DNA of 64,000 nt from Paraburkholderia largidicola (lineage in GTDB: Bacteria; Pseudomonadota; Gammaproteobacteria; Burkholderiales; Burkholderiaceae). Below are positions 20,848 through 54,186 of the stretch, piece by piece. Each line of letters begins with the position of its first letter. Position 1 is the first letter of the stretch. The stretch is from NCBI RefSeq assembly GCF_013426895.1, contig NZ_AP023177.1, positions 434,001 through 498,000 of the forward strand. Direction: 5' to 3'. The translations under genes were made by a program, and so were the position numbers. The notes below the pieces were generated by a model, which saw only the letters and a program-made list of their open reading frames with translations, made no database searches and was not told where the DNA came from.

Positions 20848-20963
20848 ATCAATCGCGTCCATGACGCATCGACCGAACGCCTGCACATGCAGGCGTTTTT
20901 ATTTACCCCGACGGGTCCCACACCCGACGGGCGTGCTCCCGTCATCTTGACTGGAAGCACACC
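20848..20963 (+). promoter_or_regulatory. structured leader with terminator and SD-sequestering hairpins
   Basis: In order: hairpin 0 (GCGTC-CAT-GACGC at 20855-20867, followed by ATCGACC), a terminator-like hairpin with U-run (CGCCTGC-ACAT-GCAGGCG, 20878-20900), a GC-rich hairpin A (CCCGACGGG repeated), and hairpin B (GTGCT...AGCAC with TCC/GGA) that buries the SD GG just before the ATG at 20964. This is the first member of a family of similar leaders on this strand. Confidence 0.6.
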
Positions 20964-21185
20964 ATGAACAGACAACGCATTCTTCGATTCGGCCTGATGG
21001 TCTGGCAGACCTATGGCTTGCCTCATGAGCAGTTGCTGCGGATCGTCAGGGCGAAGAAGCGCCACTCCGCGTATTTCCGTGCGGCAGCGCTTCGTCACCT
21101 CGTAGCAGGAGCACCTCTCTCGGTTACTGGCGGCCGCCCGTTTGCCGAGCGCCGCCGGCGGGTGCGTCGGTATTACGGCATCTGA
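20964..21185 (+). CDS. small basic hypothetical protein
   Basis: A 73-residue, strongly basic product (MNRQRILRFGLMVWQTYGLP, then RRRRVRRYYGI at the C-terminus), perhaps nucleic-acid binding. It is the first gene of the plus-strand backbone and is controlled by a structured leader. No family recognised. Confidence 0.55.
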   Translation: MNRQRILRFGLMVWQTYGLPHEQLLRIVRAKKRHSAYFRAAALRHLVAGAPLSVTGGRPFAERRRRVRRYYGI

Positions 21186-21202
21186 ACAGCACCTTCTACC
21201 TT

Positions 21203-21258
21203 CCCATCGGGGCCCGCCCCGCTGGGGGACGCGCCCCGGATCACATTTGGAATCCGGC
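21203..21258 (+). promoter_or_regulatory. structured leader (hairpins A and B)
   Basis: Hairpin A: CCCA-T-CGGGG...CCCCG-C-TGGG (21203-21226). Hairpin B: CCGGAT...ATCCGG (21236-21257), with the SD TTGGA in its loop and the ATG one base after the stem. Confidence 0.6.
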
Positions 21259-21627
21259 ATGTTTAATCACTTCATCCAAACTTTTATTGATGCACAGACG
21301 GCTGCATGGCGTCACTACAGCGCTGTTGCCGCAACCGAAAAGCGTTTGTTCGGCGAGACTCCCGATCCTGCGGTACGCGTTGCTTCAACCGACCAGGTGA
21401 TCGGCGAACTGCGCCGTACGTATCAGACGCTGGCCACCCGAATCATCTGGAAGGCCCGTGATGAGTTCGCCGCCGGATCGGTGCGACCCGTCGTGGATCG
21501 CGCCGCGATATTCCAGCTGGCTGGCTTTGACGTAGAGCGTTCACTGGCGCTGGGAGAGGTACCTGATTTCGACCGGCTGTACGCGGTTCTTCAGGCCCAT
21601 TTCGGCGCCGGGGAGGATCTGCGGTGA
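21259..21627 (+). CDS. hypothetical backbone protein
   Basis: A 122-residue, mainly helical protein (MFNHFIQTFIDAQTAAWRHY). The start at 21259 is chosen because hairpin B ends there; the longer frame has no domain. Its stop overlaps the start of the N6-methylase gene by 4 bases, so the two are translationally coupled. The function is unknown; the coupling suggests it works with the methylase. Confidence 0.6.
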   Translation: MFNHFIQTFIDAQTAAWRHYSAVAATEKRLFGETPDPAVRVASTDQVIGELRRTYQTLATRIIWKARDEFAAGSVRPVVDRAAIFQLAGFDVERSLALGEVPDFDRLYAVLQAHFGAGEDLR

Positions 21628-51749: not shown

Positions 51750-53618
51750 GTGCGCCCGGCAGGGCGCACTCACTCGGAGGTGAAAGTCCTCTACACACCC
51801 GGCAAGGGGAAGTGTTAGCCAGAGGCAAGGGTTTCGCGGGCGACTGCGAGTCTGAAGGAAGTCCGAGGCAAAGCGCTGGCCTGACGAACAGGAAGCGGAT
51901 ATGAGGCGACGCGTTGGGGCGAGGCAGCGAAAAAGGCCAAATCCAATACTTGCACGGAACGACGCGGCGTAAATCCGACGGGCATAAGCGTGAAGGTGGG
52001 TGCGTCATACCCGGGGAGATCTGCACGGCTGCCATAGGCTACCGGCGTCGAGAGGCGGCGGGATGGCTGTGCAGAAGTCAGCAGAGGGCATAGTAGGCCG
52101 AGAGGCTGAAGGCCCGAACATGAAGGACCACGATTAGGACGGTGGAGACTCGATGCGAACCGACGAAGCACAAGCCCGTGAGAGCGGGGCCATGACGCAG
52201 GAACCGGGGCGGAACCTCGGAGTGGGCATACATGGTGCGGAGGCAGGCACGGCGGCTACCGGGCAAACGAAAGTGGAGGAACCATCGCTGATGGACGCGG
52301 TGGTTGAACGTAGCAACCTATGGGCAGCGTATCGACGTGTAGTCAGCAACCGCGGTGCACCGGGGGTCGATGGCCTGCCGGTGGATCAATTCGCGGACTG
52401 GCTGAAGATGCACTGGCCAAGCGTGAAGGTGGCGCTGCTGGAAGGACGGTACATGCCTGAGGTGATACGCGCGGTGGATATACCGAAGCCTGCGGGCGGG
52501 GTACGGACACTGGGCATTCCGACGGTGCTGGATCGGCTGATACAGCAAGCGCTGCACCAGGTACTCCAGCCGATCTTCGAGCCGGGGTTCTCCGAGTCGA
52601 GCTACGGCTTCAGGCCGGAGCGCAGCGCGCAGCAGGCGGTACTGAGGGCACAGCAGTATGTGCAGGAAGGCCGCCGCTGGGTGGTGGACATCGACCTGGA
52701 GAAATTCTTCGATCGGGTGAACCACGACATCCTGATGTCGCGGATTGCCCGGCAGGTGAAGGATGATCGGGTGCTCAAGCTGATCCGGCGGTATCTGGAG
52801 GCGGGTCTGATGCGAGAAGGGATGGCGCAGCAACGACGGGAAGGGACGCCGCAAGGCGGTCCCCTGTCGCCACTGCTGTCGAACATCCTGCTGACGGATT
52901 GGGACCGCGAGCTTGAGCGACGTGGGCATGCGTTCTGCCGCTACGCGGACGACTGCAACATCTACGTCCGAAGCAGGGCGGCGGGCGAGCGACTGTTGAT
53001 CGGCATGACTGCGTTTCTTGCGAAACGCCTGAAACTGAAGGTCAACGAAGCGAAAAGCGCATGTGACCGACCGTGGAAACGCAAATTCCTTGGCTACAGC
53101 ATGACGGTACATCGTCAGACGAGGCTCCGCATTGCACCTGACAGCCTGAAACGGCTTACGGGGCGGGTGAAGACATTGCTGAGGAAGGGGCGCGGAAGAA
53201 GTCTGAGCCACACCATCGAAACACTGAATCCGGTGCTTCGCGGATGGATCAACTACTTCCGGTTCACGCAAAGCAAGCGCGTGCTGGAAGAACTGGATGG
53301 TTGGATCAGACGGCGCCTGCGTTGTCTGCTCTGGCGGCAGGCCAAACACCGCCAGGGCCGTACCACCATGCTACGTCGGCAGGGGTTGCCGGAAGATCGC
53401 GCATGGCGCTCGGCGCACAACGGCCAGGGGCCGTGGTGGAACGCTGGCGCGTCACACATGGGCACAGCCTTCCCGAAACGCTTCTTCGACCGACAAGGGC
53501 TTGTTTCGATGCTGGACACCCAGCAACGCCTCCAGCGTTCTTGATGAACCGCCGTATGCGGAACCGCACGTACGGTGGTGTGGGAGGGCTGAGGGGGTGA
53601 CCCCTCACCCTACCCGAT
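51750..53618 (+). mobile_element. group II intron with intact maturase/RT
   Basis: The 5' end GTGCGCCCGGC and the 3' end CCTACCCGAT are group II boundaries. The domain V hairpin (CCGCCGTATGCGG...GCACGTACGGTGG) lies at 53547-53579, just after the RT stop. It begins immediately after an intrinsic terminator, typical of bacterial class C introns, which recognise terminator hairpins. About 1.87 kb. It lies between genes, so splicing is not needed to restore a coding frame. Confidence 0.85.
52153..53544 (+). CDS. ltrA: group II intron reverse transcriptase/maturase
   Basis: The 463-residue LtrA-type protein has RT motifs (WWVVDIDLEKFFD-like strand VDIDLEKFFDRVNHDILMSR, then TPQGGPLSPLLSNILL) and the catalytic RYADDCNIY at about 260-266. 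The maturase domain X is LNPVLRGWINYFRF. No C-terminal HNH endonuclease is seen, which fits class C introns. It would reverse-transcribe the intron at a target site and help splicing. Confidence 0.93.
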   Translation: MRTDEAQARESGAMTQEPGRNLGVGIHGAEAGTAATGQTKVEEPSLMDAVVERSNLWAAYRRVVSNRGAPGVDGLPVDQFADWLKMHWPSVKVALLEGRYMPEVIRAVDIPKPAGGVRTLGIPTVLDRLIQQALHQVLQPIFEPGFSESSYGFRPERSAQQAVLRAQQYVQEGRRWVVDIDLEKFFDRVNHDILMSRIARQVKDDRVLKLIRRYLEAGLMREGMAQQRREGTPQGGPLSPLLSNILLTDWDRELERRGHAFCRYADDCNIYVRSRAAGERLLIGMTAFLAKRLKLKVNEAKSACDRPWKRKFLGYSMTVHRQTRLRIAPDSLKRLTGRVKTLLRKGRGRSLSHTIETLNPVLRGWINYFRFTQSKRVLEELDGWIRRRLRCLLWRQAKHRQGRTTMLRRQGLPEDRAWRSAHNGQGPWWNAGASHMGTAFPKRFFDRQGLVSMLDTQQRLQRS

Positions 53619-53816
53619 GCCGTCAGTTTTCCGCTCGCGGTCAAAGCGGGGTTGTTTTGCGCATGATTCGGGCAACTTGCGGTACTTTCAAAGCATAGAC
53701 TTTCATCATCACCCGCGTCACTGACGCATCGAACCGCCGGATTCCGGCAACAAGTCTGCCCTGGGGGACGTCCTCCCTTTTCGGGCGACACCGGGGTACT
53801 ACATTCTGAGGACCCC
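53619..53816 (+). promoter_or_regulatory. structured leader of the DUF3717 gene
   Basis: The leader starts after the intron. A -10-like GCATAGACT is followed by hairpin 0 (GCGTC-ACT-GACGC, then ATCGAACC at about 53713-53733). The GC-rich hairpin GGG-GGACGTCC-TCCC (about 53763-53777) and a hairpin B GGGGT...ACCCC (53793-53816), with the SD TGAGGA in the loop, follow. The ATG is directly after. Confidence 0.6.
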
Positions 53817-54056
53817 ATGACTCAACACGACACTTCCGATCCTGATTGCGTTTCGATCCCGCAGATCGAAGCTGCGATCAACGTGTGGCGCAACCGCAAT
53901 CCGTCTATGTTTGAAACGGATGTGCTGGTGCTGTGTGCTGAAGCACGTTGTCTCGCCGATCTGTACGGCGAGCTGATTTTCACGCGTGAAACCTCGGTGT
54001 CGCGCGAGTCGCTCACGCAGGCGCAACTGGCTGCATTGGCCGACGCGCTGACGTAA
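53817..54056 (+). CDS. DUF3717 family protein
   Basis: A 79-residue protein with the DUF3717 pattern: SIPQIEAAINVWRNRNPSMF, then VLCAEARCLADLYGELIF. The family is common in Burkholderia and other betaproteobacteria, in phages and plasmids; the function is unknown. A structured leader controls it. Confidence 0.8.
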   Translation: MTQHDTSDPDCVSIPQIEAAINVWRNRNPSMFETDVLVLCAEARCLADLYGELIFTRETSVSRESLTQAQLAALADALT

Positions 54057-54075
54057 CGCAGGACCGCTTTTTTCC

Positions 54076-54186
54076 AGCGTCAACCGACGCATCGACCTGC
54101 CGCGCAAGCGGCACACTCAACTCGCCCCATAGGGACCACGTCCCATGGGGCGTTGTTTCGTGGGGCTTTTCCTTTTCAGGTACCCC
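54076..54186 (+). promoter_or_regulatory. structured leader of the MoxR gene
   Basis: Hairpin 0 variant (GCGTC-AACC-GACGC then ATCGACC, about 54076-54096). Hairpin A is CGCCCCAT-A-GGGA-CCACG-TCCC-ATGGGGCG (54123-54152). Hairpin B is GGGG...CCCC with CCT/AGG inside (54162-54186), covering the SD CAGG. Confidence 0.62.

Follow-up and report, generated by a model that had tools for sequence, protein, structure and literature searches.

The analysed window, a 64,000-nt stretch of Paraburkholderia largidicola DNA (contig NZ_AP023177.1, here C4, positions 434,001 to 498,000; genome G000, 9.47 Mb), holds one part of a PRTRC-type plasmid or integrative and conjugative element (ICE) in which a number of genes are preceded by short leaders built on one plan. 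We conclude that these leaders are a real, selected and widespread RNA element with two competing folds. A single strand complementary to the Shine-Dalgarno (SD) sequence can pair either with the SD strand or with an upstream copy of it, and both pairings are maintained by matched changes of the segments, on the sense strand and beside start codons, across plasmids and ICEs. Judging from its sequence, the element is likely to be a translational switch, and the folding-order mechanism put forward below is a prediction.

Architecture of the leader

The leader follows the plan 5'-CCCnnnGGG-x / CCCnnnGGG-(short spacer)-x'-CCC-(spacer)-GGAG-x-(0-5)-AUG and can be divided into four strands. Strand 0 is the 5' CCC arm, strand 1 is GGG-x, strand 2 is x'-CCC (anti-SD) and strand 3 is GGAG-x (SD); the last three are also called segments 1, 2 and 3. 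Fold 1 consists of hairpin A (outer CCC:GGG, inner GGG:CCC, loop x) and hairpin B (x'-CCC with GGAG-x), and hides the SD. In fold 2, which excludes fold 1, GGG-x is paired with x'-CCC around a small CCCnnnGGG hairpin and the SD is free. The letters vary from gene to gene while the three-way match is retained, and inspection of related plasmids finds the same plan with other letters 5' of their genes. In trp-type attenuators, likewise, strands 0:1 and 2:3 together exclude 1:2; the difference is that the read-out here would be the SD and not a terminator.

All eleven leaders of the initial annotation were found in their places on reading (Table 1), and the triples that it quoted for 38247, 46717, 47111, 47574 and 49717 were confirmed and their coordinates recovered. 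The triple of 37676 (GGGAGCCTG/CAGACTCCC/GGAGAATTTG) fits with a mismatch, that of 45548 (GGGCAA/TTGCTCC/GGAGCAA) fits, and in 20964 the fit is partial, covering GGG and CAC of segment 1. Segment 1 had been described as weak in some leaders, which is right for 54187, 53817 and, as a borderline case, 21259. The shared plan is not supported for every leader, support being weak for 53817 and 54187. Ten of the eleven are matched at E<=1 by R1, a covariance model of hairpins A and B made from 35 leaders (its E-values are rough), mostly by construction since R1 was made partly from these very leaders; 53817 has neither a clear triple nor an R1 match. R1 finds one further place in the window beyond the eleven, at 39951-40016 (+), with E 0.45.

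Matched changes of the segments

The comparison set consists of the window and twelve related Burkholderiaceae plasmids (L002-L013), namely Paraburkholderia terrae pPT365, the best plasmid relative found (91% identity over 95% of a 12-kb query), and eleven more; together they form 13 sources. A scan of this set for the triple gives 87 matches on the coding strand and 14 on the opposite one; three shuffled versions average 16.7 per strand. Selecting only for hairpin A, an SD-like word and an open frame, with segment 2 ignored, gives 94 leaders on the coding strand and eight on the opposite one, seven of the eight being the reverse side of leaders; the regular expression used for this A-only selection overlooks 21259 and 45548.

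The argument is carried by register-free swap tests, in which the pairing energy of a leader's own segments is compared with that of segments exchanged between leaders. Set 1 comprises 67 distinct leaders out of the 94 (identical rows removed), and set 2 comprises 63 distinct out of 69 A-selected leaders from 16 loci of other families, after removal of identical rows and of those with too short a middle part. In set 1, segments 1 and 2 pair at -11.2 kcal/mol as opposed to -7.73 +-0.27 kcal/mol when swapped (Z -12.7; 0/2000), and segments 2 and 3 at -11.7 as opposed to -7.91 (0/2000), with small values for the controls (1:3, Z -1.6; reversed segment 1, Z -0.9; reverse-complemented segment 1, Z 0.4). 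The corresponding figures for set 2 are -14.24 and -9.79 for 1:2 (Z -15.0; 0/2000) and -12.94 and -8.63 for 2:3 (Z -13.4; 0/2000), with Z -0.6 for reversed segment 1 and Z -1.7 for 1:3. The set 2 loci were found with R1, which contains hairpin A and 2:3 and not 1:2, so that for this set the 1:2 test alone does not depend on how the loci were chosen. Since related leaders are not independent, swaps were also confined to single elements and to ortholog families. Within six elements of set 2 (N=46) the stratified test gave 0/5000 for both 1:2 and 2:3, and in the within-plasmid test (N=91) own segments paired better than swapped ones in all 12 elements with at least four leaders, with p of 0.039 or lower (L012, with three leaders, was excluded). 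The proposal of the initial annotation, a selected RNA element common to many genes in which one anti-SD strand has two exclusive pairings, is thus borne out by the swap tests.

Some of the results weigh against this reading. The reverse-complement control of segment 1 reached Z -2.1 in set 2. Within ortholog families (56 rows, reduced to 48 by removal for identity or failed parse), 1:2 was significant in only two of six: the family of the 504-aa gene (49717) gave 0/2000 and the glycine-zipper family (47574) p 0.0005, the 21259 family gave p 0.115, and the 54187 orthologs showed no excess (own -7.56, swapped -7.37; p 0.36). Finally, 2:3 helices have no excess of G.U over A.C (25:16 in set 1; 21:15 in set 2, or 16:23 at length 8).

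The 1:2 helices do show such an excess, 33:6 in set 1 and 35:6 in set 2, part of which comes, by inspection, from a recurring U of segment 2 that lies opposite G in segment 1 and A in GGAG. Pair counts based on the covariance model are blurred because segment 2 varies in its spacing. They give 68.5% of cells paired, compared with 63.7% in shuffled and 41.5-57.8% in slid alignments, and a covariation score of 0.214, compared with 0.145 shuffled (0/500) and 0.099-0.178 slid. Pairs changed on both sides numbered 11, with 9.6 in shuffled alignments (92/500 as high) and up to 11 in slid ones, and helix B was just 55.5% paired.

The same data bear on the idea that the leader acts at the level of DNA or single-stranded DNA, as a binding site or a transfer or repeat element. 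The carriers that could be identified are plasmid- or ICE-like, inverted repeats are many, and a role in single-stranded DNA was considered for STAXI in PMC2864571. We nevertheless regard this idea as hardly credible, as the leaders lie on one strand only (94:8 in the comparison set; 68 of 69 on a single strand per locus in set 2), hold a fixed position that includes the SD, and tolerate G.U on the sense strand in 1:2. A DNA repeat or transposon was rejected on the grounds of strand bias and G.U.

Predicted folding and access to the SD

Both kinds of fold occur among the minimum-energy structures of the leaders. Mean energies are -27.6 kcal/mol for fold 1, -16.9 for hairpin A alone and -17.6 for fold 2, the last computed with the final 22 nt omitted, which trims segment 2 in some leaders. 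With a mean of -27.6 kcal/mol for A+B at 37 C, an RNA thermometer is unlikely. As long as the SD has not been transcribed, fold 2 and hairpin A lie close together in energy in real leaders (mean difference -0.74) and apart in chimeras (+3.44; 0/2000).

In the computed ensembles, the order with growing transcript length is hairpin A, then 1:2, then mostly A+B from the AUG on. With the 3' end at AUG-24, AUG-16, AUG-8, AUG and AUG+12, the probability of 1:2 pairing, P(1:2), in set 1 is 0.19, 0.68, 0.61, 0.15 and 0.115, and in set 2 it is 0.375, 0.74, 0.67, 0.22 and 0.15. It exceeds 0.5 in 50 of the 67 set 1 leaders at AUG-16 and in 44 at AUG-8 (chimeras, 22% and 21%), and in 51 of the 63 set 2 leaders at AUG-16. 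The values for single leaders of the window are given in Table 1, and that of 49717 is predicted to be mostly in the SD-free fold 2 (0.9) at every length. The predicted series suggests a brief window for translation on the nascent mRNA.

The cost of opening the SD, computed for two plasmids, is higher in genes with a leader, at 5.98 (n=17), than in those without one, at 3.72 (n=53; p 0.008). Masking strand 0 lowers the cost from 6.28 to 4.31, and masking strands 0 and 1 together brings it to 7.24. The higher cost would suit a fixed translational damper or mRNA stabiliser, in which the similarity of segments 1 and 3 is a by-product of the duplication of an SD hairpin, and duplication would indeed yield x=x at first. 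Decayed duplicates would, however, lose the three-way match, which weakens the by-product view: the match survives repeated change, both in the 504-aa family, where own segments surpassed swapped ones in 2000 of 2000 cases, and in the DUF3577 leaders described below. We therefore consider a simple damper rather improbable.

Possible mechanisms: folding order or a trans-acting trigger

We propose, with moderate confidence and on the basis of the folding predictions, that the four strands of each leader make up a self-contained RNA which would time the translation of its gene by the order of folding. Strand 2 would have strands 1 and 3 as alternative partners. Fold 2 would be favoured while the SD emerges, so that ribosomes would gain brief access to the nascent mRNA, and fold 1 once the leader is complete, leaving the mature mRNA shut; such a brief opening would cap and time the expression of mobile-element genes. 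It is tempting to speculate that loop x might serve as a toehold for strand exchange, and that a protein or upstream RNA modules (the radC RNA and STAXI motifs treated below, or GACGCATCGA hairpins) might tune the choice of fold.

A close parallel is the leader of the MS2 maturation gene, where ribosomes enter during a transient fold that later gives way to a cloverleaf-like one (Groeneveld 1995, van Meerten 2001, as cited in PMC6733600). For the present leaders, an open transient fold preceding the one that hides the SD is predicted by the ensembles, and the computed barriers are high. The differences are that MS2 has one cloverleaf leader while here there are many short ones, that the transient helix here involves a decoy copy of the SD strand, and that kinetics have been studied in MS2 and are predicted here. 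Metastable hairpins also shape the folding pathway of hok mRNA and aapA3 (PMC6733600); there they prevent translation of a toxin mRNA while it is being transcribed, whereas in the present leaders the open state would be the transient one.

Against folding order stand several of the computed values. Fold 2 is still preferred in some complete leaders (set 1, 10/67 at AUG and 6/67 at AUG+12; set 2, 16/63 and 10/63), hence a shut end state is not universal. The nested direct-path barriers have medians of 17.8 kcal/mol from A to fold 2 and 14.9 kcal/mol from fold 2 to fold 1, so that refolding would be too slow for transcription unless it is helped or proceeds through a loop-loop (pseudoknot) intermediate, a kind of intermediate that the barrier method cannot represent. 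The relief obtained by masking strand 0 is 1.97, compared with 0.91 in chimeras (p 0.01), a modest excess, and the ensembles describe equilibrium at each length and not kinetics.

A trans-acting trigger is the main rival. The leader would then be bistable, and a protein or small RNA encoded by the element or its host would occupy strand 0 or hairpin A, so that segment 1 is released to pair with segment 2 and the SD opens; alternatively, the factor would bind x:x' and shut the SD. The logic would be akin to trp attenuation with a translational read-out. Since the SD is hidden in the predicted fold of most complete leaders, mature mRNA would need an opener; the cheaper opening on masking of strand 0, the high computed barriers and the regulon-like use of one plan by many genes point the same way. 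However, no RNA-binding family scored above cut-off among the 20 pPT365 proteins scanned, most of which are common to several relatives; the leader accompanies differing sets of genes; and, apart from CCC, no sequence shared by the strands 0 is apparent for a factor to read. A trigger of this kind seems possible, and we entertain it only tentatively beside the folding-order mechanism.

Distribution within and beyond Burkholderiaceae

The initial annotation had recommended a covariance model of the leaders and a search of related elements. At E<=1, R1 matches 110 places in the window and L002-L013, 96 of them on the coding strand. The frames behind these 96 fall into 31 gene clusters, six of which have frames shorter than 50 aa and are perhaps not genes. 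Leaders of ParB orthologs are present in 12 of the 13 sources. In the P. largidicola genome itself, all 15 matches at E<=5 lie within one 96-kb stretch (C4:424041-519969), including leaders beyond the right edge of the window (L049 17143; L050 1110, 2124 and 2914). The PRTRC cassette in the window is represented by ParB, E, C, F, B and ThiF, each above the cut-off of its NCBIfam model.

Among 249 genomes of the family, the leader is present in 31 (E<=0.01), PRTRC ThiF in 35 and both in 26; in other words, 26 of 35 PRTRC-positive genomes have the leader, as opposed to five of 214 PRTRC-negative ones. The five comprise G153 and G196, with backbone genes behind the leader, and G037, G079 and G193. 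The P. largidicola genome included, R1 matches occur in 11 of 349 genomes at the level of the order (ten outside the family), in six of 369 for the class and in four of 349 for the phylum. In the 18 loci read (nine from the order, nine from the class or phylum), the three-way scan marks a leader at the R1 match or within about 1 kb of it, except in L070, which is not counted. Examples are the triples GGGGACACA/TGTGTCCCC/GGAGACACA (L063), GGGATATAC/GTATATCCC/GAGATATAC (L064) and GGGAACCC/GGGTTCCC/GAGAACCC (L061). The genes behind the leaders of other families include those for RecT, RadC, ArdC-N, ParB, a SNF2-type helicase, a DUF3799 protein and DUF3577. Of the 21 stretches with the exact pattern x = ACAC in the named species collection, 18 belong to records labelled Gallionella, Gallionellales, Nitrotoga, Nitrosomonas or Nitrosomonadales; this one pattern had no match in viral contigs. 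The occurrence of the same plan on mobile elements of several proteobacterial families suggests that this kind of RNA control is widespread.

The notion of a regulon private to one element does not hold, for the leader is found on PRTRC plasmids and ICE-like elements of many families. Confinement to PRTRC elements was rejected as well, with ThiF above cut-off in just three of the 18 other genomes with R1 matches. Four PRTRC plasmids from outside Burkholderiaceae (L014-L017) were read in pieces of 26 to 38 kb; R1 has no match at E<=1 in these pieces, and the triple scan gives four stray ones. Recurrent leader words of their own were seen by eye in two of these plasmids. The Aromatoleum plasmid (L014) has a word close to GCATYWCYCY-n-TGCAG 5' of AAGGAG (at 12681, 14750, 16510, 17259, 17995, 23129, 24306, 26207 and 27692), and the P. 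aeruginosa plasmid (L015) has a GGTTCTGGCACA-like word about 50-70 nt 5' of start codons (at 3151, 6755, 8621, 16125, 22324, 23978 and 24318).

DUF3577 genes and known RNA families

The hint of the initial annotation at DUF3577 was apt: all 17 DUF3577 genes read (from eight genomes, eight plasmids and L064) carry the leader, two of them (L107 and L110) in partial form. The leaders of L101 and L102 are identical. The three-way score is at least 26 in 15 of the 17, that is in all except L107 and L110, in a table drawn up without a null comparison. Eight of 203 genomes have a DUF3577 gene, and the leader was found in all eight, in seven by the scan and in L107 by R1 (E 0.026) and by eye. The eight plasmids were picked from 62 records for diversity of taxa (Pseudomonas, Stutzerimonas (L110), Vibrio, Shewanella, Burkholderia, Nitrogeniibacter, Erwinia and Paraburkholderia); seven leaders were found by the scan and that of L110 by eye. 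Segment 1 of the DUF3577 leaders is GGG followed by TAAGC, AGACAC, GATATA, AGATC or GAATTG, and segments 2 and 3 match each of these. A DUF3577 motif was reportedly listed by Weinberg et al. in NAR in 2017. As the leader is present in 17 of 17 DUF3577 genes, for which that motif is named, the two may be the same element, a likeness by name and gene location.

No Rfam 15 family at gathering score overlaps a leader in the loci scanned (the window, L051-L064, L066, L067, L069, L072, L077-L079 and L101-L116), and none matches at the leaders of eight DUF3577 genes (L101-L108) even at E<=1. STAXI (RF01728) has no match at E<=10 in window positions 20000-58000, and radC RNA (RF01754) has none in the window. 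A known riboswitch, STAXI, radC RNA or any other Rfam family was accordingly rejected for the window leaders, in agreement with the earlier impression that they are not recognisable as a known riboswitch. In the excerpts of the literature on related RNA leaders and motifs that were consulted, three-way competition with a decoy SD strand was not found, and the titles and abstract beginnings of the PRTRC literature include no paper on an RNA leader.

The exclusive helices and the sequestration of the SD would be compatible with a ligand riboswitch whose aptamer is hairpin A and whose expression platform is formed by segments 1-3. Conservation in the alignments is, however, limited to GGG, CCC, the 3' arm of A and the SD, with no block that could be a ligand core; the gene functions are unlike one another (ParB, RecT, RadC, ArdC, DUF3577 and an ATPase); and the Rfam scan was negative. 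We hold a riboswitch to be very improbable.

The radC RNA and STAXI are RNA elements of the same mobile-element leaders and differ from the present one in being separate, longer motifs upstream of it. The radC RNA lies about 10-40 nt 5' of leader-like sequence in six places (L109 4491-4638, 5746-5896 and 7917-8054; L110 4419-4562, 5778-5923 and 9613-9751), and a seventh copy is located at L109 3121-3269. STAXI, described in PMC2864571 as a repeated pseudoknot in which UUCG loops are frequent, was found at L115 5671-5821, about 60 nt 5' of a three-segment leader. The initial annotation had suggested a comparison with STAXI, which turns out to be a different family that adjoins the leader in this one relative. 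The arrangement suggests that in ICE-type plasmids radC RNA or STAXI and the three-segment leader form one composite 5' leader.

A broader, quite tentative view is that the leaders could represent a class of sequence-plastic, ligand-free translational RNA switches that provides common 5' control for conjugative and integrative elements of beta- and gammaproteobacteria, with a decoy SD strand catching the anti-SD strand during transcription, with translation timed by the order of folding, and with radC RNA and STAXI as upstream sensors or tuners. If this is the case, one RNA device common to mobile elements of many proteobacteria would set the output of their own machinery, the unexplained radC and STAXI RNAs would gain a context, and well over a hundred natural worked designs for co-transcriptional switches would be at hand. 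Because it is defined by a relation of three strands and not by sequence, such a device would be missed by sequence-based family searches, a lesson for RNA discovery.

Leaders of the window and neighbouring features

Table 1. Leaders in the window. Segments are given in the order 1 / 2 / 3; P(1:2) is the predicted probability with the 3' end at AUG-24/-16/-8/0.
Gene behind the leader	Leader	Strand	Hairpin A	Segments	P(1:2)	Remarks
73-aa gene at 20964	20906..20963	+	20906-20931	20913-20922 (loop of A) / 20933-20940 / 20953-20960 (SD)	0.00, 0.59, 0.03, 0.00	R1 41.8 bits
122-aa gene at 21259 (weak)	21202..21258	+		21209-21216 / 21230-21237 / 21249-21257		R1 only 21.6 bits
116-aa gene at 37676	37620..37675	+	37621-37646	37627-37635 / 37649-37657 / 37663-37672	0.00, 0.85, 0.83, 0.00	
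PRTRC ParB gene (38247)	38192..38246	+	38192-38218	38199-38205 / 38223-38229 / 38235-38242	0.00, 0.88, 0.88, 0.00	
45548	45488..45547	+		45495-45500 / 45515-45521 / 45537-45543		Scan score 33; R1 30.4 bits
94-aa gene at 46717	46662..46716	+	46662-46686	46669-46675 / 46690-46696 / 46706-46711	0.00, 0.26, 0.63, 0.00	
129-aa gene at 47111	47052..47110	+	47052-47078	47060-47066 / 47083-47089 / 47100-47105	0.00, 0.78, 0.78, 0.01	
Glycine-zipper gene at 47574	47515..47573	+	47516-47541	47523-47530 / 47544-47551 / 47563-47571	0.00, 0.72, 0.81, 0.00	
504-aa gene at 49717	49651..49716	+	49651-49679	49658-49666 / 49682-49690 / 49703-49711		
Gene at 53817 (pPT365 ortholog, DUF3717)	53759..53816	+			0.02, 0.47, 0.47, 0.07	SD-hiding helix 53793-53797 with 53812-53816; segment 1 unconvincing
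ATP-binding (AAA-like) gene at 54187	54125..54186	+			0.00, 0.88, 0.86, 0.23	Hairpin GTGGGG...CCCCAT downstream also covers the AUG; segment 1 without statistical support

The frame behind the 45.5-kb leader (45548-45646) stops after 32 codons, compared with 96 in its pPT365 ortholog, and the window copy of this gene may be disrupted. A group II intron (51834-53618; three Rfam intron matches) lies between a backbone gene and the 53.8-kb leader and contains a 463-aa frame (52153-53544).

A variant is seen in the family of a 74-aa gene (L002 4830, L004 4916, L005 8098, L007 8797, L008 5471 and L010 10553), whose leaders have a very regular hairpin A and a different downstream hairpin around the SD; some of them retain the match of the loop to segment 2. 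Five window leaders are preceded by a second module (20840-20900, 38130-38180, 46550-46610, 53700-53760 and 54075-54115), which is also present in relatives. It consists of GCGTC(n)GACGC or GCGC(n)GCGC, then ATCGA and usually a hairpin, sometimes with a -10-like box before it, and may mark promoters or the 5' end of the mRNA.

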